In this document: positions 3,874-56,117 of the stretch, in pieces | How positions within the stretch are numbered: the first letter of the stretch is position 1 | Layout of the letters: every line of letters begins with the position of its first letter | NCBI GenBank assembly: GCA_013360215.1 | Contig: JABWCP010000021.1 | Span: 1 to 56,117 of the forward strand | From: a bacterium | Lineage (GTDB): Bacteria; CLD3; SB21 | Direction of reading: 5' to 3' | DNA length: 56,117 nt | Translations under genes and position numbers: made by a program | The notes under the pieces: model-generated | Told to the model about the DNA's origin: nothing | What the model saw: only the letters and a program-made list of their open reading frames with translations | Database searches by the model: none

Positions 3874-6687
3874 TTAACGTTGACCAAAGTTTGGCATCCA
3901 CAAATGAATTGATATACCCATCCATATTTCGCGTCCGGGCTCATACATTGTTCCATCACGAAACCGTACCTTGTATTGACTGTATCTACGATCTCGTATG
4001 TGGGTTGGAAGTGATTGAAAATCGGATGTTGCAAGGTAGCCATTATCATTGGCTTGACCAGTGGCGGGAAAAACAGTAACCGGGTTTTTATTGTTTAGAA
4101 GGTTAGTGCATTCAATAAATATACTAAACTCAGTATTATCTAACTTAAAGGACTTTGTGAGTTTTAGATTAACTTTTCTGGACGAAGGGGCCGTTTCGGA
4201 GAGCGGATCCGAGCTTATTGATGGTGGGATGCCGGTTATATCGGATGGATTTACTTCGGTTCTTGAATACGGAAATCCGCTAGCGGAAGTATATTCAACA
4301 AACAATGTAGAATGCGACAATACCGTTGTTGGAGCCGATTGGTCGAAATGGATGATACTTTGAATATTGAAGCTAAGTGGACGTGTATGTATCAGCGGCA
4401 TAGAAACATTGCGTTGCCAACCTAACCAAACCGCGCGAAAACCCTCGGTGTCAAAACTATTGCCTTCCGCTTTTGAGTTAATAAACTGTCCAAATAGCCG
4501 TACGTCCCAAAAAAGCGTTAGTGGTATTTTAGCGCCGACGGACAATCCCTGAATAGAGAAACTTCTTTGGTTATCAATGACGATAGTTGAATGGGGTTGC
4601 GTAAGCTGTGAATTGATACTCATGCTCTTTTGTACATCGATTAAAAAGACTCGGAAATCAATTGTCCCGCCGTTATGGGTTTTCATCTGAGCGCCTGCAT
4701 CCATTGAAAAAACCTTGGGCAACTGTAGTGACGGATTGCCTAAGGTTAATGCATACGGTCCTAGGTTTATCATTTGAGCCAACAGCTCTGAATTAACATA
4801 CCAATTTTTTAATCCTGGGTTTTGACGGTACCAACCGATATGCGAACTTGCCGTTAAACGCTCGGATAGTAATGTTTGGATAGAGAAGCGTGGCATCAGG
4901 GCCGTAATCGAATTAACGTCCGCAAAATCGTTTGTGTGAATGAATCCATCACTACCTGTGGGGTTGATAGGGTTTTTAAACATTCGCGCATCGGTTTTCA
5001 ACCAAAGTGCATGTAATCCAATGGATGCATTAATATTATTTTCATGTAGATGATATTCTGCAAAAGCATTTTTTTCCACTGGTTTGCGAGCGCCATTCAT
5101 CCCTGATACTGTTTTTATCAGCTCCAGATTATCCGTTAAAGTATAACCGATCAGATCGTTTGGTTGATTTAAATAATCAATAATATTGGCATGTCGGATC
5201 TCATGAATTGTATAAGAAACCCCGCCGACCAGCAGATCATTGCGTTCCGGAATTTTAAATGAAGCTTGTGTAAAATAACGCGTTGTTTGGGTTTCTCGTT
5301 TCGAAAACAAATATGGTCCCGCGCCTATATCAAAAAACAAATTGTCATTGAAATAGGTTCGTCCGCCCGTCGTACCGGTTCCATAAGTCTGCAAATTTCG
5401 AATTGCATAATTATCGGACCGGAACAAACGTCGGTCGGCCATCCGATCTTTGTAAGAGTAGTTCCAAAAACCAGCAAGTACTTCGATTGATTTATTGCAT
5501 TTCCAAAAAGTCTGCGCTGTAAAATCACTAGAACTTGAGGTTTTTCTATATCCGCCACGTTTACTTAAAAGATATCTTGAGTCGAACAGGTTACTTTTTT
5601 GTTCGTTATATGTATGCGCAATCTTAATCGTGTAATTTTTACTAAAAAGAAGAGTTCCTTGCATATATGTATAAAGTCCGTGGTCGCTGTTGACTTCATA
5701 GTCACGTGCGCCGTTTTTGTAACCACGCCAAACGACCGTATCCTTAGGTTTGAACACGCCCTGCTGATCCCAATAGTACTCACTATTACCTTGTTTAATC
5801 TGATATTGAGGTATCCCGACGACACTGGGATCGCTATCATCGAAGGATTCACTTTCAGCGGCAGCGTACAGATAAAATAAGCCTGGGATTACCGGGCCCG
5901 AAATATCTGCATCAAAGCTACGTTTACCGTAACTTGAGAATCCGATTTTTTCAGAAAAAGCATCCGTCATGCCTGACGTTGAAAGCGACCATCGGTCAGT
6001 ACCTTCTTTGGTTTGAATGTCAATCTGGTGATTATACATCCCAATAGAGGTATTCGTTCCGCCTTCATGTATAGTAACAGATCGTATGGCGCGATGCGGT
6101 ATGCGCAAATGCGGAAGTCCATCCGTAATATCTGAGATGAGATTTCCGTTAACCGAATAACCTGTCGCATAATCAAAATCAGACCGAACATGATAACGCC
6201 GTGTTCTTTCACTTTTACCATTGCTCGTGGATACTGCAGCGGGTAAATGGAGAAGATAATTTTCAACATGCTTTCCTGTCATTACGCTCTGTTGTTTGCT
6301 ACTTATTGTCTGTATGCCGTATCCATCGAAAGACACATGACTGTAATTGGTCGAATAAATACCGTAACCATTACGTTCAGTTTTTAAGAGTTTTATGTGG
6401 ATGCTTAGAGTTTCGTGCCGTCTAGCAAAAACATCAGGTAATGCCCCTATCGAAGTTTTATGATGAGACAATTGGATATCGTAAACACCATCAGTTTGAA
6501 TGGAAATGGAAACATAACCGTTTCCATCCGTTCTTAATGTTTGATGGGTGATGTTCGTTTGAATATCGATGTCCGCTATGGGAGCATTATTAATATCAAC
6601 CACGGTTATTTGAATTTCGCCTGCATTGATAGAAAATGCATAAAGCATAAATGCGAATGCATACGCACGGTAGATTCTATATTGCAT
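3874..6687 (-). CDS. TonB-dependent outer membrane receptor with N-terminal carboxypeptidase-like domain
   Basis: The 937-residue protein has a signal peptide ending near SINAG, a carboxypeptidase-regulatory-like beta-sandwich at about 23-105 (IQITVVDINNAPIADIDIQT), a plug domain at about 130-235 (GYSVNGNLISDI, then IRSVTIHEGG and DIQTKEGTDRW) and a beta-barrel to the C terminus. The last strand region reads MYEPGREIWMGISIHLW. The start has a G-rich ribosome binding site (AGGGGGG three bases before the ATG). It would take up an unknown ligand using proton-motive force from a TonB/ExbBD complex such as the one at 32-34 kb. No SusD-like partner or ligand-processing enzyme lies beside it. It is clearly paralogous to the next gene. 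Confidence 0.88.
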   Translation of the reverse strand: MQYRIYRAYAFAFMLYAFSINAGEIQITVVDINNAPIADIDIQTNITHQTLRTDGNGYVSISIQTDGVYDIQLSHHKTSIGALPDVFARRHETLSIHIKLLKTERNGYGIYSTNYSHVSFDGYGIQTISSKQQSVMTGKHVENYLLHLPAAVSTSNGKSERTRRYHVRSDFDYATGYSVNGNLISDITDGLPHLRIPHRAIRSVTIHEGGTNTSIGMYNHQIDIQTKEGTDRWSLSTSGMTDAFSEKIGFSSYGKRSFDADISGPVIPGLFYLYAAAESESFDDSDPSVVGIPQYQIKQGNSEYYWDQQGVFKPKDTVVWRGYKNGARDYEVNSDHGLYTYMQGTLLFSKNYTIKIAHTYNEQKSNLFDSRYLLSKRGGYRKTSSSSDFTAQTFWKCNKSIEVLAGFWNYSYKDRMADRRLFRSDNYAIRNLQTYGTGTTGGRTYFNDNLFFDIGAGPYLFSKRETQTTRYFTQASFKIPERNDLLVGGVSYTIHEIRHANIIDYLNQPNDLIGYTLTDNLELIKTVSGMNGARKPVEKNAFAEYHLHENNINASIGLHALWLKTDARMFKNPINPTGSDGFIHTNDFADVNSITALMPRFSIQTLLSERLTASSHIGWYRQNPGLKNWYVNSELLAQMINLGPYALTLGNPSLQLPKVFSMDAGAQMKTHNGGTIDFRVFLIDVQKSMSINSQLTQPHSTIVIDNQRSFSIQGLSVGAKIPLTLFWDVRLFGQFINSKAEGNSFDTEGFRAVWLGWQRNVSMPLIHTRPLSFNIQSIIHFDQSAPTTVLSHSTLFVEYTSASGFPYSRTEVNPSDITGIPPSISSDPLSETAPSSRKVNLKLTKSFKLDNTEFSIFIECTNLLNNKNPVTVFPATGQANDNGYLATSDFQSLPTHIRDRRYSQYKVRFRDGTMYEPGREIWMGISIHLWMPNFGQR

Positions 6688-6813
6688 GTTCCCCCCTAAA
6701 AAAAGTAATTTTATATACAGTAGTACGGTAAAATCATAAAAAATTACAAAATTATTTTTTAATAAATCACTATGTATTTCAAAAGAGAAGCTTTTCTATC
6801 GTATGCCAATCTA

Positions 6814-9666
6814 CTAATAAGTCACCTCAAGTCCGATCAATAACTCCCGCCCCGGTTCATACATCAGACCATTTCGAAAATGTGCCTTATACTGAGGGCG
6901 GCGGCGATTTTGTTGATCACTGGAATAAGAGTAGAATTCCGTAGTTTGTAGAAATCCGTTATCATCCGGCTTTCCAGTAGCGGTGAAAACAGATACGGGG
7001 TTTTGGGTATTAAATAAGTTCGTACATTCTAAGAAAATAATTGCTTGGAACTTTCTATAGTGAAACGATTTACCAAGTTTAAGATCTATGGTAAACATAT
7101 CATCGGATCGTCGGCTATTTTGCTTTGCCGTAGAATGGCTTGATGGTATTCCTAGTACGACAATGGGGGCCACGGTAGTTGGTGTATATAACGCGCCGTC
7201 CTTCTTAGTTACACGGAGACTTCCATAACTGTGTTTTAACCACCAAACGGGAGCGGTATCGTCAAAATGAATCGTACCCATCCCACCCATGTGCCATTCC
7301 TTTTCGTGATTGGCAGATTGTTTTAGTTTTGCAGGGCTTGAAGGGCTTGAAAAACCCAGCCAAGCTGCGCGAAATCCCCCTGCGTTATAAAAATAACTCT
7401 CTTCCGCTTCCTGCACTCCGGAGTAACCGATCAACGTGATATGATCTTGCACTTCGAGCGAGGCATCTAAAATAAATCCTGTTGTATTAAAGTTTGAAAC
7501 GGCTCCATACATCATTAAACTGTTCGGAAATGAAACAATACTGCTTTGATTGATTCGGTCCTTTGTTTTTTGTCGGTACCAACTACCGCCGACATTGAAA
7601 TCGGAGTTTATCTGCATACGCCCGCCGATATCAAACGTTCCAACTTTTGAGGGTTGAAGCGTTGAGTTACCTAGGATTGTTGCAAACGGAGGAGCAAGAG
7701 ATTGGCGTTCCAAAAAAGACGTACTATGATAGCGGTACTTGATCTGGTCTGCAAAGTAATACCATCCATAATGACTGAAAACAACTATACCTTCTGACAC
7801 ATCGGCAGTGATACCGATCCGTGGTAATATTTTATAATACGTGGATTCTGTTTTTTTATAATCATCATCAGTGATAATTTGATCATGGCCTGCAGGATAG
7901 TGGTAATCTTTGATTTGATCTGTTCCAAATTGTATTCGGCGGTAGGCAAAGCCAAACGAAGCCGTTAGCTTGTGATTTTTAAACGTGGCTTCCGAATACG
8001 CATCCCAAATGACGGGTTGCTTTGCGCCATCTTTTCCGCTATTTTTTTCTTTGAGATCAAAGTTTGTCGTAACAGTATATCCATAAATGTCATTAGCCCC
8101 ATTTATGGGATTTTCATAATCGTAGATCATGGCGGAGCGATATGTTCCCGCTGTTCGACTAATTCCTGATTCTATGCTCAGCGACTCCGTTGCCCGGTAA
8201 TTAGCTGTGATAGATTCGGTATGGACTGTAGACTCGTTTTGCTCAAACATGGCATGCCCGGTGGCGCCGATATCGTAAAAAAGGTTGTCGTTAAAATAAA
8301 TACGATGCCCGGTACTGCCAATTATCAAATTCTCTATATTATTTAAAGCGTAGGATGTTGACTTAAAAAGTCGTCGGTCCGCGTTTTTTTTATGGGTTGA
8401 TATATACTGCGTTTTACCACTAACTTGCCACTGTTCGTTAATATGCCATGTTGCAGATGATTGTATTGCAAACGCCGTATTTTCTGTTCGTGGCGCTCCT
8501 TCGGGTGAAAGCAATTGAGGCATGGTAAACCAATTACGTGCATAGTGTGAATACAATCCCGATACATCAAAGATAATATTCCGAGTTAGCGGCACCGTAA
8601 AACGGGTGTACGCATTGATCGTCTTGCGTGCATTACTGCGCCCTGGACGCGGTCCGTATTGGGAAGATTTCCAAATGACGGTGTCTTTACCTCCTGACCC
8701 ATGCTTGATCTTGTAATCTGGAACGCCAACAACACTCGGGTCATTGTCGTCGGTGTTTTCATATTCTGCCGCGCTGTAGAAATAAAGTTTTTTTGGTATA
8801 ATAGCGCCTGAAATTTCACCGTCGAACTGACGGTATCCATAGGAAGTGCCGCCCAACCAAGCTACCGGTTTATCCGAACGAAAAGAACCTCCAAAAGTTA
8901 ATCGATCCGAACCTTGTTTGGTTTGAATGTCGGCAACCTGAGAAAAATTACCTGAACGGATGTCGGCGGCCCCTTCTTGGAGAAGTACGGACATAATGGC
9001 GCGGTGCGGAACTTGGAGATGTTTTTGTCCGTCAAAAAGATCGTTTATCCATTGGCCGTTGACTCTGAATCCTAAAGCCTCATCAATATTAGAACGGACA
9101 TGAATATAATCGCGGTAGGTCTGAAGAGGATTAACCACATTTATGCGAGCAGCTATTTCCGTGCTTTCAAAGTCTTCGCGCGGTGTACGACTGGTATAAA
9201 TTGCACCCGGCATATTGAGTAGAAAACCTTCCGCATGACGACCGGTGAGTTTGTTTTGAGATCGTGATGTTTGCAATCGTACGGTATAAGGAAAGGCGTT
9301 TTGTACGGTCGACGAAAGCTGCATAGTTTGCGATGCCAGCGAAGCTTGCGTTTCGTCCAAGACGATTTCGATAGACGTTGCCGGATATCGGCCAACAAAA
9401 ACTTCAAAAGGTTCGTCAACGGTCAGAGTTTCCGTTGTGATCTTGAGTTCATATACACCTGTCGGCAACAAATAAAAATGAACTACGCCTTCCTCATTGC
9501 TTTGACTGGCATACGGCGTTTGAAGAAGTTCGATCAGCGCGTGACGGAAAGGATCACCTTGGGGGGTTCGCAGGTGGACGATCAATTCTCCAAAGTCCCC
9601 GGCGAAGGCCGCCGATGAAAAAACAGCACTGAAAAATGCTGCACGAAGAAAATGTAATAATGACAT
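6814..9666 (-). CDS. TonB-dependent outer membrane receptor, paralogue of the preceding gene
   Basis: The 950-residue protein shares domain order and many motifs with its downstream neighbour: signal peptide (ending SSAAFA), carboxypeptidase-like domain (LIVHLRTPQGDPF), plug (FRVNGQWINDLFDGQ, SVLLQEGAADIRSG, DIQTKQGSD) and barrel ending MYEPGRELLIGLEVTY. Shared patterns such as ECTNLFNTQNPVSVFTATGK show a tandem duplication followed by strong divergence. I set the start at 9666, where GAGGG lies 7 bases upstream and a standard signal peptide begins; an upstream ATG would add 17 residues. The promoter should lie in the divergent region shared with ctaB. The ligand is unknown. Confidence 0.88.
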   Translation of the reverse strand: MSLLHFLRAAFFSAVFSSAAFAGDFGELIVHLRTPQGDPFRHALIELLQTPYASQSNEEGVVHFYLLPTGVYELKITTETLTVDEPFEVFVGRYPATSIEIVLDETQASLASQTMQLSSTVQNAFPYTVRLQTSRSQNKLTGRHAEGFLLNMPGAIYTSRTPREDFESTEIAARINVVNPLQTYRDYIHVRSNIDEALGFRVNGQWINDLFDGQKHLQVPHRAIMSVLLQEGAADIRSGNFSQVADIQTKQGSDRLTFGGSFRSDKPVAWLGGTSYGYRQFDGEISGAIIPKKLYFYSAAEYENTDDNDPSVVGVPDYKIKHGSGGKDTVIWKSSQYGPRPGRSNARKTINAYTRFTVPLTRNIIFDVSGLYSHYARNWFTMPQLLSPEGAPRTENTAFAIQSSATWHINEQWQVSGKTQYISTHKKNADRRLFKSTSYALNNIENLIIGSTGHRIYFNDNLFYDIGATGHAMFEQNESTVHTESITANYRATESLSIESGISRTAGTYRSAMIYDYENPINGANDIYGYTVTTNFDLKEKNSGKDGAKQPVIWDAYSEATFKNHKLTASFGFAYRRIQFGTDQIKDYHYPAGHDQIITDDDYKKTESTYYKILPRIGITADVSEGIVVFSHYGWYYFADQIKYRYHSTSFLERQSLAPPFATILGNSTLQPSKVGTFDIGGRMQINSDFNVGGSWYRQKTKDRINQSSIVSFPNSLMMYGAVSNFNTTGFILDASLEVQDHITLIGYSGVQEAEESYFYNAGGFRAAWLGFSSPSSPAKLKQSANHEKEWHMGGMGTIHFDDTAPVWWLKHSYGSLRVTKKDGALYTPTTVAPIVVLGIPSSHSTAKQNSRRSDDMFTIDLKLGKSFHYRKFQAIIFLECTNLFNTQNPVSVFTATGKPDDNGFLQTTEFYSYSSDQQNRRRPQYKAHFRNGLMYEPGRELLIGLEVTY

Positions 9667-10058
9667 GGATTTTCCCTCAGATAAAGTCAAAAACAGAATG
9701 AGATTTGATAAAAGCATGGTAAGGTTAATTTAGGTATGATTTAAAAACAAGAGTAAAGACGGGTCACTTTGAAAAAAACGACATGCGTTATCAAATAGCT
9801 GTATCTCAAAATACAATAAGCGCGTTATTTCAATGCAACTCAAAAGTTTAGTATAGAGCGAGTTTAGAGGATTGTTTGAACTCTTTTCAGTCTTGGCGAT
9901 GTTGTGAAACTAGACTGAAGGTAAGAGATGAAAAAGTGAAAAAATTTTTTTATAAATATTCTTTGACAATCACAGGCTACTATTCTATCTTAGCCGCCAT
10001 TCGGAAATTATGGATTAATAACTGTTTAATTCCACATTTAGAGAAAGTTCGCCACGGG
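9667..10058. other. Divergent intergenic region between receptor gene and ctaB
   Basis: About 390 AT-rich bases separate the outward-facing receptor and ctaB genes. An open frame in line with ctaB extends into it from 9876, but its translation is unlike any CtaB N terminus, so I treat the region as non-coding. It should contain the promoters of both flanking transcripts. One candidate for ctaB is listed separately. Confidence 0.5.
9963..9991 (+). promoter_or_regulatory. Candidate promoter for ctaB
   Basis: TTGACA (9963-9968), a 17-base spacer and TATCTT (9986-9991) match the general -35/-10 pattern, with six of six and four of six consensus bases. The likely transcript start would lie about 60 bases before the ctaB ATG. 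Promoters in Bacteroidota often differ from this consensus, so this is only a candidate. Confidence 0.35.
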
Positions 10059-25187: not shown

Positions 25188-25597
25188 ACGCCGCTGATTT
25201 ACCATTTATCAATGCCATACTCAATTCCGTGAGCACCGTGTTTCTTACGTTGGGATACATAGCTATCCGAAAAAAAGATCGTGTTCAGCATAAACGCTAT
25301 ATGGTCACGGCGCTTATTTCGTCAGCGCTTTTTCTCACGTGCTATCTGATTTATCATTATCAGGTTGGTTCGGTTCCTTATCCGTATTACGATTGGACAA
25401 GGCCGGTATATTTCGTCATTTTAGTGCCACACATTATACTGGCCGCAATTATGTCGCCTTTTATTATCAGCGCCGTTCATTATGCATGGATCGGAGAGTT
25501 TTCGAAACACAAAAGACTAATGCGGTGGGTCTGGCCGGTGTGGATATTCGTATCGGTGAGCGGAGTTGTTATCTACCTGATGTTATATCGCTTCTAA
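25184..25597 (+). CDS. DUF420 family membrane protein
   Basis: The 137-residue protein has four transmembrane helices and the DUF420 pattern: LPFINAILNSVSTVFLTLGY, RKKDRVQHKRYMVTAL, FLTCYLIYHYQVG, and YFVILVPHIILAAIM with a conserved His. Several histidines on the outer side of the helices could bind a metal or heme. DUF420 genes are often linked to cytochrome oxidase operons and a role in oxidase assembly has been suggested. It is the last gene of the act-cta operon, overlapping the preceding gene by four bases and ending convergently with a 15-base overlap of the next one. Confidence 0.85.
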   Translation: MNAADLPFINAILNSVSTVFLTLGYIAIRKKDRVQHKRYMVTALISSALFLTCYLIYHYQVGSVPYPYYDWTRPVYFVILVPHIILAAIMSPFIISAVHYAWIGEFSKHKRLMRWVWPVWIFVSVSGVVIYLMLYRF

Positions 25598-27187
25598 ATT
25601 AATCTTCATTTTGCCGACAATGCGGGCAAATTCGCTTTCGACGAAAGGTTTGTACGACGAGAACTTAGCAGAAAACGGATGTTTGATTTTATTTTTTGTA
25701 GCATCCATCAAATCGGCTATCAATTCTTTTTGTGCGTTGATAAGGTCATCGTAATAAATAGGCTCGCCCGCATCCTTACCTTCGTTTTTCATTTTTTCAA
25801 CTTGCGTATCCCTTAAAAAATCAAATCCCTTTTCTGCCGCAAGCATGGCAATAAGGGGATGAGCTTCCGGCGGGGCCGTATTAAGAGGGTGAAACAAGGT
25901 ATCTTTGTAACGGTCCATGATTTCATCCACGGAGTCCCTGTTTCGGCTGCACTTTTTAAGCAGGATATTTTCAAAACTAAGTGTGTAGCATGCGGATGCT
26001 TGAGGTATATTTCCTGTTTGAAAATAGAGCGTGCCCAGGTGACTTAAGGATACCGCCAGCTTTTCGATTTCAACATTATACAGCGTTTCATCGCCCAGGT
26101 CCGGGACGCGCGCTGTTTTTACGACGTCAAGCACGCGAGCAAAATTGTCTTTTTCGCGTTCAATAAAACTAAAATTGACTTCGCCGCGTGAATAACGTTC
26201 GGCCTTGAGTAAAGCATCGCACCAGTAATGACCGATCGTAATGGCCGATATATAATCTACAAATTCCTTGTTTTCAGTAACTGTTTGCAGAACACCATCC
26301 ATGCGGGATAAACATTCTTCGTAGCGCTGGCCGCGAAGCAGAAAAAATACTAACTGAGGCATGACATAAGCAACCAACTCAGGATTGGAAAGTTTGGAAG
26401 CCAAATCTTCAATGATTTCGATTTCCTCATCCAACACTTTTTCCTGAAGGCGATTGACGACACGTTCTGTCGAAACGCGCAGTGCCTCCTGAAGTTGTAG
26501 GTGCAGTTCGTTGCGCAGGCGCGGATAATCCGGTAGTAACCGGAACAGCTCAATAGCGCGCTCGCACAATAAACTGCCCTGTGCAAAATCAGCCGCCAGC
26601 GAGGTGTGCATCGCGGTCTGGCATAAGGAATAGATCAAAATACTCATAGCCCGATCCGAACGCGCGTGGTGCGACTTCAAATCGGATTCAAATTGTTGAA
26701 TGGTTTTGCGGATGTCGGAAGTGGAGCGATGATGAAGACGGCGACTCAAAAGACCTACCAAAAGCAACACCAGAATGCGTTGATCTTCGATCAAAGAAAT
26801 GACATTTTGTCTTAAAAATTGAGCGTAGTTTGCGCGAACCGTTTCATCGGTTTCTTTGCGTACCGGTTTTTCATTCGTTTTAGGCCGCATCTGGATTATT
26901 TTATTCCAGTACTCGCGCAATGGGCCTTGCTTGTGTGTGCCGGTGACGGAGGTAGGATTATATACGGTTTCTAAGGTACGACGATTTTTTTCAAACGTAC
27001 GCAATAACGGGGCGGAAACACGAACCTCATGGTTTTGATGAAACAAATGCAAAAGATCGGCATAGGTTTCACGTATGCAGTGCCATGATGATTTATTGGA
27101 TTCTACCGCCAGTTGCGCGAGAATATTTACAAGACTCCGAATTTCGCCGTTAGATCGGCGCTCTTCCTGAAGCGGTGCAATAGACAT
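25583..27187 (-). CDS. Large helical protein of unknown function
   Basis: I do not recognise this 534-residue protein. It has no signal peptide or transmembrane segment, so it should be cytoplasmic. It is almost entirely helical, with repeated pairs of amphipathic helices and a TPR-like stretch at about residues 340-430 (LAVSLSHLGTLYFQTGNIPQ, then ASACYTLSFENILL). A hydrophobic run near residue 130 (IEDQRILVLLLVGLLSRRL) is probably a buried helix. It converges on DUF420 with a 15-base overlap and is preceded by an 89-base gap, so it may be transcribed alone. No strong ribosome binding site is visible. Confidence 0.75.
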   Translation of the reverse strand: MSIAPLQEERRSNGEIRSLVNILAQLAVESNKSSWHCIRETYADLLHLFHQNHEVRVSAPLLRTFEKNRRTLETVYNPTSVTGTHKQGPLREYWNKIIQMRPKTNEKPVRKETDETVRANYAQFLRQNVISLIEDQRILVLLLVGLLSRRLHHRSTSDIRKTIQQFESDLKSHHARSDRAMSILIYSLCQTAMHTSLAADFAQGSLLCERAIELFRLLPDYPRLRNELHLQLQEALRVSTERVVNRLQEKVLDEEIEIIEDLASKLSNPELVAYVMPQLVFFLLRGQRYEECLSRMDGVLQTVTENKEFVDYISAITIGHYWCDALLKAERYSRGEVNFSFIEREKDNFARVLDVVKTARVPDLGDETLYNVEIEKLAVSLSHLGTLYFQTGNIPQASACYTLSFENILLKKCSRNRDSVDEIMDRYKDTLFHPLNTAPPEAHPLIAMLAAEKGFDFLRDTQVEKMKNEGKDAGEPIYYDDLINAQKELIADLMDATKNKIKHPFSAKFSSYKPFVESEFARIVGKMKINLEAI

Positions 27188-51888: not shown

Positions 51889-52710
51889 ATGATTCCTACA
51901 TTATTTGAAATACCGATCTTCGGTGGCATTCCCATTCACAGCTTCGGGCTTATGATGGCGGCGGCTTTCCTTACTTCCAGTTTTGTGCTGCGGCGGTTGT
52001 TCAAAAATGCCGGATATTCCGAAGAATTGTCGGAAAAAATCATTCTTGTCGCGGCGATTGCCGGTTTAGCCGGTTCCAAATTGTATTATCTTTTTTTTGA
52101 AGCGTTTGAACGTTTTAAAAAATATCCGATGGAGATGTTGTTTAGCGGCGCGGGACTTACCTGGTATGGCGGTTTTGTTTTAGCGACGATAAGCATTATC
52201 TATTTGTTAAAGAAAAATAAAATCCCCGTCTTGCGCGGCGTGGATCTTATAGCGATCCCGCTACCGCTTGGTTATGGTATCGGCCGTATCGGATGCCATC
52301 TTTCGGGCGACGGCGATTACGGTTTGCCGTGGGACGGGCCTTGGGCTACAAATTATTCGCGCGGTGTCGTTCCGCCTTCTCAGGCCTTTCACGGCTCGGA
52401 GATCGCTCGTCAATATCCGAACGGGATCGTTCCGGATAATACGCTTTGCCACCCGACGCCGTTGTATGAAACGTTGATTTCAACGGGAATTTTTTTGATC
52501 CTGTGGCATATGAGTAAACGTAAATTGCCTGCGGGTTCCATCATTTCGCTTTATCTCATGCTTGCCGGTATGGAGCGTTTTTTTATCGAATTTATGCGTC
52601 TCAATCCTAAAGTGGCGTTTGGCCTGAGCGGCGCGCAATTGATCAGTGTGGTGATGATTACAGCCGGTGCGGGTTCGCTGGCTTATTTGTGGAAGCGTGC
52701 AACGGCATGA
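51889..52710 (+). CDS. lgt: Prolipoprotein diacylglyceryl transferase
   Basis: The 273-residue membrane enzyme transfers a diacylglyceryl group from phosphatidylglycerol to the lipobox Cys of prolipoproteins, the first step for the many lipoproteins in this window. Seven helices are expected. Visible family marks are IHSFGLMMAAAFL, GLTWYGGFV, the signature GYGIGRIGCHLSGDGDYG and HPTPLYE. The stop overlaps the DUF4159 start (ATGA). A decayed copy of its last codons is found at 55.5 kb. Confidence 0.94.
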   Translation: MIPTLFEIPIFGGIPIHSFGLMMAAAFLTSSFVLRRLFKNAGYSEELSEKIILVAAIAGLAGSKLYYLFFEAFERFKKYPMEMLFSGAGLTWYGGFVLATISIIYLLKKNKIPVLRGVDLIAIPLPLGYGIGRIGCHLSGDGDYGLPWDGPWATNYSRGVVPPSQAFHGSEIARQYPNGIVPDNTLCHPTPLYETLISTGIFLILWHMSKRKLPAGSIISLYLMLAGMERFFIEFMRLNPKVAFGLSGAQLISVVMITAGAGSLAYLWKRATA

Positions 52711-53387
52711 TACGGTTTGTTTATGTTTTATTTTTGATCTTAGTGTTAAACGATACCGTATCGGCGCAGGCCAATGGGAAAATCGCGTCATCTCGTTTTA
52801 CGATCGCGCGTCTCAAATACGGCGGTGGCGGGGATTGGTATGGCAATAAAAACGCATTGAATCACCTGCTGCGTTATTTGAGTGATAATACCAATATTGC
52901 CGTTGAAAAAACGGAAACCTACGTGGATCCGTCGGATATCCGGCTTTTTGATTATACCTTTTTGTATATGGCCGGTCACGGCAACGTCAAATTCAGCGAT
53001 GATGATGTTCGCCAATTGCGTCGTTTTCTGACCGGCGGCGGCTTTCTTTGGTGCGATGATGATTATGGTATTGATCCGTATTTTCGGCGTGAGATGAAGC
53101 GTGTGTTTCCGGAACTTGATTTTACACTGATTCCTTTTTCACATCCGATTTATTCGATCGGATCACGGTTCCCCAATGGTATGCCGAAAATACACGAACA
53201 CGATGGGGGCCCTCCGCAAGGTTACGGATTGTTTTGGAAAGGGCGATTAATTTGTTTTTATTCTAAAAATACGGATATCAGCGACGGCCTCGAAGGGCCG
53301 GAAGTATTTCCCGAAGACCATCCTGAAAAACAAGCGGAGGCACTTCGGTTTGCGGCGAATATTGTAATGTATGCCTTAAGTTACTGA
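52707..53387 (+). CDS. DUF4159 protein, exported
   Basis: The 226-residue protein has a signal peptide (cleavage near NDTVSAQ) and a DUF4159 domain: FTIARLKYGGGGDWYGNKNA, VDPSDIRLFDYTFLYMAGHG, VRQLRRFLTGGGFLWCDDDY and FYSKNTDISDGLEGPEVFPE. The family has a class I glutamine-amidotransferase-like fold and is often found near MoxR/DUF58 genes in FCB and planctomycete genomes, where its role is unknown. The start at 52707 overlaps the lgt stop by four bases. A broken, diverged copy of the first third lies at 55.5-55.84 kb. Confidence 0.88.
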   Translation: MIRFVYVLFLILVLNDTVSAQANGKIASSRFTIARLKYGGGGDWYGNKNALNHLLRYLSDNTNIAVEKTETYVDPSDIRLFDYTFLYMAGHGNVKFSDDDVRQLRRFLTGGGFLWCDDDYGIDPYFRREMKRVFPELDFTLIPFSHPIYSIGSRFPNGMPKIHEHDGGPPQGYGLFWKGRLICFYSKNTDISDGLEGPEVFPEDHPEKQAEALRFAANIVMYALSY

Positions 53388-53400
53388 GAAGGTGAAGAAT

Positions 53401-54096
53401 ATGAAAAATGGTGTCGGTGAAAAAATTCTTGATGCGGCTATGTTGGTGGTTATGCTGGCGGCGCTGTATCTGACATTTATTTGGGTTCCCAATGAAAAGA
53501 CCATGGGTATCATTCAACGCGTGTTTTATTTTCATGTGCCCGCCGCGTGGGTTTCATTTTTAGCGTTTGGTTTTGTTTTTGTCGCGAGCATCATGTATCT
53601 GATCAAGCGGGATGACAAATGGGACGCCATGGCCGTATGTTCGGCAGAAATCGGTTTGCTTTTTTGTACGATCGTATTGGTGACCGGGCCGATTTGGGCT
53701 AAACCGGTGTGGGGCATTTGGTGGACGTGGGATGCGCGCCTGACATTGACGTTGGTACTGTGGCTTATATACCTCGCATACACGATGTTACGGGCATACA
53801 TTGACGATCCGCTCAAGCGGGGACGCCTTTCAGCCGTCGTCGGCATCGTGGGATTTGTAGATGTTCCGCTGGTTTATTTTTCGATTCGCTGGTGGCGCAC
53901 ACAGCATCCGGCACCCGTCATGGCGGGGGGCGAAGGTTCGGGTTTGGCACCGGAAATGCGTTTGGTGTTGATGTTTTGCCTTGCCGCATTTACTCTGCTT
54001 TTTGTGTATTTATTGAATAAACGCCTGAAAATGGAGAAAACCGAACGAGAGCTTGAGTTACTTTATCGTACGGTGCAACGCGACAACCGGATGTAG
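53401..54096 (+). CDS. ccmC: Heme exporter/cytochrome c assembly protein CcmC
   Basis: The 231-residue membrane protein has six transmembrane helices and the CcmC marks: the first periplasmic heme His in FYFHVPAAWVSF, the Trp-rich heme-handling motif WGIWWTWDARLTLTLVLW, and the second His in WWRTQHPAPVM. It presents heme to CcmE for maturation of c-type cytochromes such as ActA, ActE and the CtaC domain here. No other ccm genes are in the window. I prefer ATG 53401 with AAGG upstream over a GTG three codons earlier. Its last 167 bases are repeated at 55838-56004. Confidence 0.92.
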   Translation: MKNGVGEKILDAAMLVVMLAALYLTFIWVPNEKTMGIIQRVFYFHVPAAWVSFLAFGFVFVASIMYLIKRDDKWDAMAVCSAEIGLLFCTIVLVTGPIWAKPVWGIWWTWDARLTLTLVLWLIYLAYTMLRAYIDDPLKRGRLSAVVGIVGFVDVPLVYFSIRWWRTQHPAPVMAGGEGSGLAPEMRLVLMFCLAAFTLLFVYLLNKRLKMEKTERELELLYRTVQRDNRM

Positions 54097-54209
54097 TTTT
54101 TTGCGATAGCATAGTTGGTTCCAAGACGTTATATTAAAAAACGATGAGAAAAATAATTCTAATAGTTTGTTTGTTGTTGCTCCGGACGACCGTATTTGCC
54201 GGGGATGGG
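53930..54209 (+). repeat. 280-bp direct repeat, left copy (ccmC end and porV-like start)
   Basis: This segment matches 55838-56117 without gaps at a constant offset of 1908 bases, with four mismatches that I could count (at 54029, 54056, 54083 and 54176, pairing with 55937, 55964, 55991 and 56084). The right copy is cut off by the window edge, so the true repeat may be longer. Three of the four differences are transitions and three fall within the ccmC coding part. Confidence 0.95.
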
Positions 54210-54464
54210 TATCAATTTTTGCGTGTCGGCGTGACGGCCCGCGCGACGGGACTCGGCGATGTGTTTGTCGCTCAACCCGGTGACGCAACAACGTTTATGT
54301 ACAATCCGGCAGGCCTTGCAACACTACAAGGGCGGACTTTTGCAGCAAGCTATAAAGAAAGCCTGCCGTTATCATTGCAAGCCGGCGTAAATTATAAACT
54401 GCGGAATGCCCCGGTTACGGTCAATCTGACATTTACAGATATACAAACGACTGTCAGCGTATAA
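54144..54464 (+). pseudogene. Truncated PorV/UPF0164-like gene
   Basis: The 106-residue frame has a signal peptide ending near TTVFAGDG and the N-terminal PorV/UPF0164 hallmark ARATGLGDVFVAQPGDATTF followed by MYNPAGLATLQG. It then jumps to LPLSLQAGVNYKLRNAPVTV, which looks like a later part of a barrel, and stops at 54464. Family members are normally about 280 residues or longer. I infer a decayed gene with an internal deletion, though a short expressed product is possible. A second start of the same gene appears at 56052. Confidence 0.75.
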
Positions 54465-54574
54465 ATTGAGCGCTACGACTGCTCAATCAGCAAAGATGAA
54501 ATTTTCAGTTGATCTTTTTAACTCAAAATAAAAAATTCAAACTACTTATATTAAAACAAAAAAAGGATAGATTC

Positions 54575-55432
54575 ATGAAGGAAGAACAAACCTTGGTTAA
54601 TGACGTAAAGCAATTTTGGTCAAGTCATCCAATGGCATACAATTTTCCGACTAAAAACCTTTCGAAAGATTTGCTTGCGCAGATTGATCAAAAATTTTAT
54701 AAAAAGGCTGTCAATTGTTATAATGGTGATGGCAAAAAACTCTACTCCGATTATATTGACTATAATGAGGTGATCAAGAATAAGAGTGTTCTGGAAATTG
54801 GATACGGAATGGGCACTATGATGCAATGTTTTTGTGAAAATGGAGCTAATTATTTTGGAATTGATCTTAGTGATTTTCATTTTGCTGCAGCTCAATTTCG
54901 AAAATCCATGTTTAATCTTAACGCCGATGTTGTATTAGGAAATGCAGAAAGTTTGCCTTATGGGGATAATCAATTTGATTTTGTTTTTTCACATGGGGTT
55001 ATCCATCATACGCCACAGACCGAAAAGGTATGTGATGAAATTTATAGAGTGCTAAAGCCGGGCGGTAAATTTCTTGTTATGGTTTATCATATGAATTCGA
55101 TTCGAGTAAGATGGGACTACCACATTAAACATTCCTTCTTTCGATGGCAAAAAGGATTAAAAACATTTTGTAGCATTCAAGAAGCGTTGAATTATCATAC
55201 GGATAACCATGACTCAAATCGAGGCGGCTCACCACTGGCTAAAGCGTATACACGAACGACAGGCGCCAAATTGTTTGAAAAATTTAAACACCTGCACATT
55301 GATGTTACTAGCAATCCCATTGAGTTTGAAAAATTTCCCTTTCATCCTTTTGGTAAATTGATGCCCTTTTCATTAAGAAAAAAATTATCCAAAAAATGGG
55401 GATATTTTTTGATGATTAATGGGCAAAAATGA
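54575..55432 (+). CDS. Class I SAM-dependent methyltransferase (Methyltransf_11 type)
   Basis: The 285-residue protein has a Rossmann methyltransferase core at about residues 65-180: motif I VLEIGYGMGTMM, the acidic end of strand 2 in FGIDLSDFHF, GNAESLPYGDNQFDFVFSHG, HHTPQTEKVCDEIYRVLKPG and GGKFLVMVYHMN. The N terminus (VKQFWSSHPMAYNF) recalls methyltransferases of surface-sugar and natural-product clusters. The substrate is unknown. AAAGGA lies nine bases before the ATG at 54575. The gene and its flanks are clearly more AT-rich than the neighbours, and it is enclosed by 280-bp direct repeats, so it looks acquired. Confidence 0.88.
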   Translation: MKEEQTLVNDVKQFWSSHPMAYNFPTKNLSKDLLAQIDQKFYKKAVNCYNGDGKKLYSDYIDYNEVIKNKSVLEIGYGMGTMMQCFCENGANYFGIDLSDFHFAAAQFRKSMFNLNADVVLGNAESLPYGDNQFDFVFSHGVIHHTPQTEKVCDEIYRVLKPGGKFLVMVYHMNSIRVRWDYHIKHSFFRWQKGLKTFCSIQEALNYHTDNHDSNRGGSPLAKAYTRTTGAKLFEKFKHLHIDVTSNPIEFEKFPFHPFGKLMPFSLRKKLSKKWGYFLMINGQK

Positions 55433-55526
55433 TACAATTTAAAAACATCAATACTACAAGATAAAATCATGTCCGGCATTGTGGGGATGATACATGTTGA
55501 TCCGAATAGCATGTCGAAAATGGAGT

Positions 55527-55837
55527 GGGTTCACTGGCGTATTTGTGGAAGCGCACTATCGCATGATCTAGCTTTGATTTTGTTGTTAAATAATACCGTG
55601 TCTGCGCAGACAAGCGGGAAAACGGTGTCCTATTGTTTTGCGATTGAGCGCCTCAAATAGGGCGGAAGCGGTGATCAGTATGGCAATAAAAACCCATTGA
55701 ATCATCGGCTGAATTATTTGAACGAAAATACTAAATATTGCTGTTAAAAAAACGGAGACGTATGTGGACCCGTCGGACATACGTTTTTTTGATTATAATT
55801 TTTTTGTGCATGGCGGATCACGTCAATGTCAAATTTA
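55527..55837 (+). pseudogene. Decayed lgt-end/DUF4159 fragment
   Basis: The segment aligns with 52671-52998. The last codons of lgt survive as GSLAYLWKRTIA plus stop (55528-55566), again overlapping an ATG, but that ATG is followed at once by ATC TAG. A deletion of about 16 bases in the signal peptide, a TAC-to-TAG stop at 55658-55660, an extra A near 55733 and an extra T near 55800 break the DUF4159 frame. By eye about 82% of bases match. Several differences are silent, for example throughout VDPSDIR, so the copy diverged as a working gene before it decayed. Confidence 0.85.
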
Positions 55838-56004
55838 GCGAAGGTTCGGGTTTGGCACCGGAAATGCGTTTGGTGTTGATGTTTTGCCTTGCCGCATTTA
55901 CTCTGCTTTTTGTGTATCTATTGAATAAACGCCTGAAAATGGAGAAAACCGAACGCGAGCTTGAGTTACTTTATCGTACGGTGCAACGCGATAACCGGAT
56001 GTAG
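55838..56004 (+). pseudogene. ccmC 3' fragment joined to the DUF4159 remnant
   Basis: The last 167 bases of ccmC are repeated here with three mismatches, coding EGSGLAPEMRLVLMF to the C terminus TVQRDNRM. There is no ccmC start or heme-handling motif. The fragment continues in frame from the DUF4159 remnant (ADHVNVKFS, then EGSGLAPE), so a short chimeric frame exists from ATG 55810, but it lacks every functional region of either parent. Confidence 0.88.
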
Positions 56005-56051
56005 TTTTTTGCGATAGCATAGTTGGTTCCAAGACGTTATATTAAAAAACG

Positions 56052-56117
56052 ATGAGAAAAATAATTCTAATAGTTTGTTTGTTGCTGCTCCGGACGACCG
56101 TATTTGCCGGGGATGGG
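56052..56117 (+). CDS. Start of a PorV/UPF0164-like gene (3' part outside window)
   Basis: The first 22 codons match the truncated gene at 54144, with one silent change, giving the same signal peptide (MRKIILIVCLLLLRTTVFAG). The window ends here. This copy may be the intact gene that originally followed ccmC. Confidence 0.7.
   Translation, partial: MRKIILIVCLLLLRTTVFAGDG

Follow-up and report, generated by a model that had tools for sequence, protein, structure and literature searches.

The question

How did a methyltransferase gene come to stand between ccmC and a porV-like gene in a conserved operon, enclosed by a direct repeat and accompanied by pieces of the neighbouring genes? The stretch of DNA analysed (the window) comprises contig C21 in full (1-56117), from an assembly of 56 contigs and 3.72 Mb, and the locus lies at its end.

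The direct repeat and the contig end

The first-pass annotation described near-identical 280-bp direct repeats, 1908 bases apart, with four mismatches. A repeat search of the window recovered the same coordinates and counts: 53930-54209 and 55838-56117, both on the forward strand, match at 276 of 280 bases in direct orientation with a spacing of 1908. All four mismatches (54010, 54048, 54084, and 54177) are synonymous: TTA/CTA, CGA/CGC, GAC/GAT, and TTG/CTG. No other direct repeat of 60 bp or more reaches such identity in the 56-kb window, and therefore this pair is not a product of chance. Copy 1 consists of the ccmC end, a spacer, and the start of the porV-like gene. Copy 2 has the ccmC end, the spacer, and the first 22 porV-like codons. 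Since the sequence of C21 stops at 56117, that position is taken as the contig end and not as the boundary of the repeat. The porV-like gene goes on in contig C26, so the repeat is probably longer than 280 bp. Alignment of the C21 and C26 pieces with relatives puts its true length probably at ~419 bp, with copy 1 reaching ~54348.

Contig C26 (45466 bp) starts, on its reverse strand, within the porV-like frame, and continues into a 185-aa gene and a CHASE2/adenylate cyclase gene. Because six relatives in the same family have this gene order, the chromosome is expected to run from C21 into C26. Alignment with the relatives suggests that ~220 bp are absent between the two contigs. The porV-like gene is thus split between 56052-56117 of the window and 6778-7401 of C26 (L034, minus strand), and judging from the parts in copy 2 and C26 it appears complete. 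Note that the label porV is weak: no Pfam family passes the cut-off for this protein or for a relative's full-length protein. Other proteins in the window also lack a Pfam match, namely two large proteins encoded side by side (937 and 967 aa; 3874-9717, minus strand) and a 534-aa protein (25583-27187, minus strand).

A contig end that falls inside a repeat raises the question of an assembly effect. In this case the 1908-bp unit would exist elsewhere, in a second strain or as a free circle, and would have been joined here by the assembler through the repeat. In short reads an integrated unit looks the same as a circle alongside an empty site, and the 1.4% difference between the repeat copies is strain-like. 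However, the inner junctions at 54447 and 55838 share almost no sequence, and assembler joins are therefore unlikely there. The linear order of C21 and C26 restores the gene order of the family, and estimated contamination is 0.53%. We regard an assembly effect or strain mixture as improbable.

The operon in related genomes

The native genes before the repeat are intact, all on the forward strand. lgt (51889-52710; PF01790, E 2.3e-48) and the DUF4159 gene (52710-53387; PF13709, E 1.7e-59) are syntenic in the six relatives. They are followed by the gene for a ccmC-type haem exporter subunit (53401-54096; PF01578, E 8.7e-35), which is 67-71% identical to its counterparts in the family. In all six relatives (G001-G006), which belong to other genera (the genus of this bacterium has one genome), lgt-DUF4159-ccmC-porV-like-185-aa gene-CHASE2 cyclase is present in single copy and contains no methyltransferase gene. 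As judged from this comparison, the insertion is derived in this lineage. The order of these genes is common to all seven genomes of the family and is broken only here. When the insert DNA was searched in nine genomes of the class, it was found whole only in this genome; the two weak matches outside are a relative's own DUF4159 gene and a 44-base stretch.

The first-pass annotation had proposed comparing this locus among related genomes, and had suggested, as one of two readings, a genomic island made by recombination. The 1908-bp segment is absent from all six single-copy relatives, which favours its making by recombination. One gene without mobility functions hardly merits the term genomic island.

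Decayed gene pieces in the insert

Between the repeat copies there are remnants of three operon genes, where the first-pass annotation had noted a truncated porV-like frame and gene debris. The truncated frame is indeed present (54144-54464, forward strand). It has the 69 first codons, a large in-frame internal deletion, and then 54349-54447, which is 98% identical to the later part of the porV-like gene on C26; after this, homology is lost. The debris comes from two genes, lgt (its end) and DUF4159 (its first part), both on the forward strand. The lgt relic (55522-55567) is 80% identical to 52666-52711. The DUF4159 relic (55563-55837) has lost its start region, contains an internal TAG and frameshifts, and is joined to ccmC at GCGA. 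Taken together, the two relics (55522-55837) are 78.7% identical to the native copy (52666-52999), compared with 52-59% to other genera of the family.

At 55838, across the shared GCGA, identity jumps sharply from 79% to 98.6%. Microhomology is read directly at this junction, while the internal join of the porV-like remnant and the join at 54447 fall against the contig gap. That one insert holds two levels of divergence speaks against one recent duplication as its origin, and the insert is, on this comparison, of at least two ages or sources. The earlier suggestion of a partial tandem duplication with later insertion thus fits in part: the lgt/DUF4159 part (79%) and the ccmC/porV part (98.6%) are too unlike in age to come from one recent duplication.

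An old tandem duplication is a different matter, and it is the main rival. Here lgt-DUF4159-ccmC-porV would have been duplicated in situ long ago. The methyltransferase gene would have been gained later at the junction, both copies would have suffered deletions, and gene conversion would have kept the ccmC end and porV start alike. In favour of this, the relics stand in operon order, and a conversion tract would stop exactly where homology ends, at 53930/55838. The four synonymous differences between the repeats also fit gene conversion between copies in situ. Against this, the account calls for many steps (a duplication, a foreign gene acquired precisely at the junction, two deletions, and also gene conversion), and no trace of a duplicate is found in the relatives. 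We consider it possible, though rather unlikely.

The differences in the DUF4159 relic bear on its source. Thirty-one of 58 are at third codon positions (p 0.001 against one third; p ~0.05 against an expectation of 0.42, a rough value for a mixture of live and dead copies that was set by hand). This excess suggests that part of the divergence arose under selection, and it gives weak support to an imported ortholog as the source of the relic. Much of the excess would also be expected if one of the two copies was live and the other dead.

The methyltransferase gene

The gene at 54575-55432 (forward strand) encodes a class I SAM methyltransferase of 285 aa (Methyltransf_11, PF08241, E 1.3e-22) with the intact motif LEIGYGMG. 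The reading frame is intact, and its ATG is preceded by AAAGGA. It lies in an A+T-rich stretch (54448-55521), and its G+C content is 35% (31% at third positions) compared with 45-49% for lgt, DUF4159, and ccmC. The AT-rich methyltransferase noted earlier between the copies is therefore real, and by composition it looks foreign.

An NCBIfam search of the protein reached no cut-off among the matches listed. Relatives at E 1e-18 or better are found in 16 other genomes among 386, the best with 41-45% identity. The nearest sampled relatives (30-45% identity) are encoded mostly within surface-polysaccharide clusters, as seen in ten neighbourhoods examined. Their neighbours include glycosyltransferases, O-antigen ligase, and asparagine synthase-type proteins, as well as heparinase-like proteins, sugar dehydrogenases, and ABC exporters (ABC-2). 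Two features of methyltransferases of the surface-polysaccharide class are thus found: a Methyltransf_11-type Rossmann domain with a glycine-rich motif I, and relatives amid glycosyltransferase, O-antigen, and exporter genes. The gene itself has no polysaccharide cluster in its surroundings and stands alone among lgt, DUF4159, and porV relics. Because the neighbour genes of its relatives are of polysaccharide type, our best guess is that the substrate would be a sugar or surface glycan.

The MADS defence methyltransferase (mad2, PADLOC) was considered and rejected. The match is to the generic domain only (profile positions 281-426 of 492), and companion defence genes are absent. No relative of the methyltransferase was found in viral contigs, and matches in phages and plasmids are distant (under 40% identity) among the matches listed.

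Origin and possible loss of the insert

The homologous stretch is directly repeated around the insert, and the site is empty in six relatives of the family. The reading that we favour, with a probability of about 0.6, is a derived, non-mobile insertion-duplication that arose by homologous and microhomology-mediated recombination and was later trimmed. A mosaic DNA consisting of a ccmC end and porV start, the foreign methyltransferase gene, and a diverged lgt-DUF4159 fragment would have been imported or captured between ccmC and porV. The present layout would follow from homologous recombination within the ccmC/porV stretch together with microhomology joins, such as GCGA at the DUF4159/ccmC junction, by a route akin to homology-facilitated illegitimate recombination or a Campbell-type single crossover. 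Since ccmC has kept one complete copy and the porV-like gene apparently has as well, the insert would have been tolerated, and its surplus parts would have decayed or been trimmed afterwards. We infer this order of events, as well as import rather than an old duplication with gene conversion.

Insertion of a self-moving element or gene cassette with duplication of its target would also leave a foreign gene flanked by direct repeats. However, no transposase, integrase, attachment sites, or terminal inverted repeats were found for the insert, and there is no copy of it elsewhere in the genome. The duplication is 280-419 bp long, with mismatches and unequal ends. Such an element is scarcely credible here. 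The first-pass annotation had likewise reported no transposase, integrase, or tRNA target, and this holds; the window has a single tRNA, 18 kb from the insert. An exact DNA pattern of the ccmC end had no match in viral contigs, and promoter and terminator scans around the insert stayed at chance level.

In principle the insert could be excised exactly through the repeats, which would bring back the layout of the family. The unstable or strain-variable segment that the first-pass annotation suggested finds no support in the genomes compared. The predicted product of recombination between the copies is an intact ccmC followed by a porV-like start that runs on to C26. A bolder proposal is that the 1908-bp unit moves out of the site and back into it, or persists as a free circle, through host homologous recombination, and so serves as a transposase-free, phase-variable cassette that turns surface methylation on and off; we hold this to be very improbable.

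Comparison with known systems

The proposed insertion-duplication has the look of everyday genome wear and not of a new kind of element. The processes are already known, and what is new is one case from a little-studied lineage. It is a readable one of how a conserved operon can gain a lone accessory gene without a mobile element, with the neighbours left intact and an exact way out still possible.

Homology-facilitated illegitimate recombination is described for competent bacteria (Acinetobacter, S. pneumoniae, and P. stutzeri) and for E. coli conjugation (PMC3240628). There, as here, foreign DNA lies beside a homologous anchor and is closed on the opposite side by a join at short homology. 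In the present case, however, the homologous stretch exists in two copies together with a diverged relic, and the event is reconstructed from the sequence. In Campbell-type single-crossover insertion-duplication, direct copies of the homologous stretch likewise flank the insert, and one complete copy of each neighbour gene survives; the insert described here has no plasmid or phage functions, and its homologous stretch carries deletions.

Another example is found in merodiploids made by transformation in S. pneumoniae (PMC3784515), where tandem repeats bound imported DNA beside an intact gene. Those duplications are ~100-900 kb and arise through repeats at other chromosomal sites, unlike this one. 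In type VI clusters of V. cholerae (PMC5361080), a new module enters by homology at one end and parts of the old gene remain as displaced relics. While such exchange in V. cholerae is adaptive and repeated at effector loci, the insertion between ccmC and the porV-like gene is a single event in a housekeeping operon.
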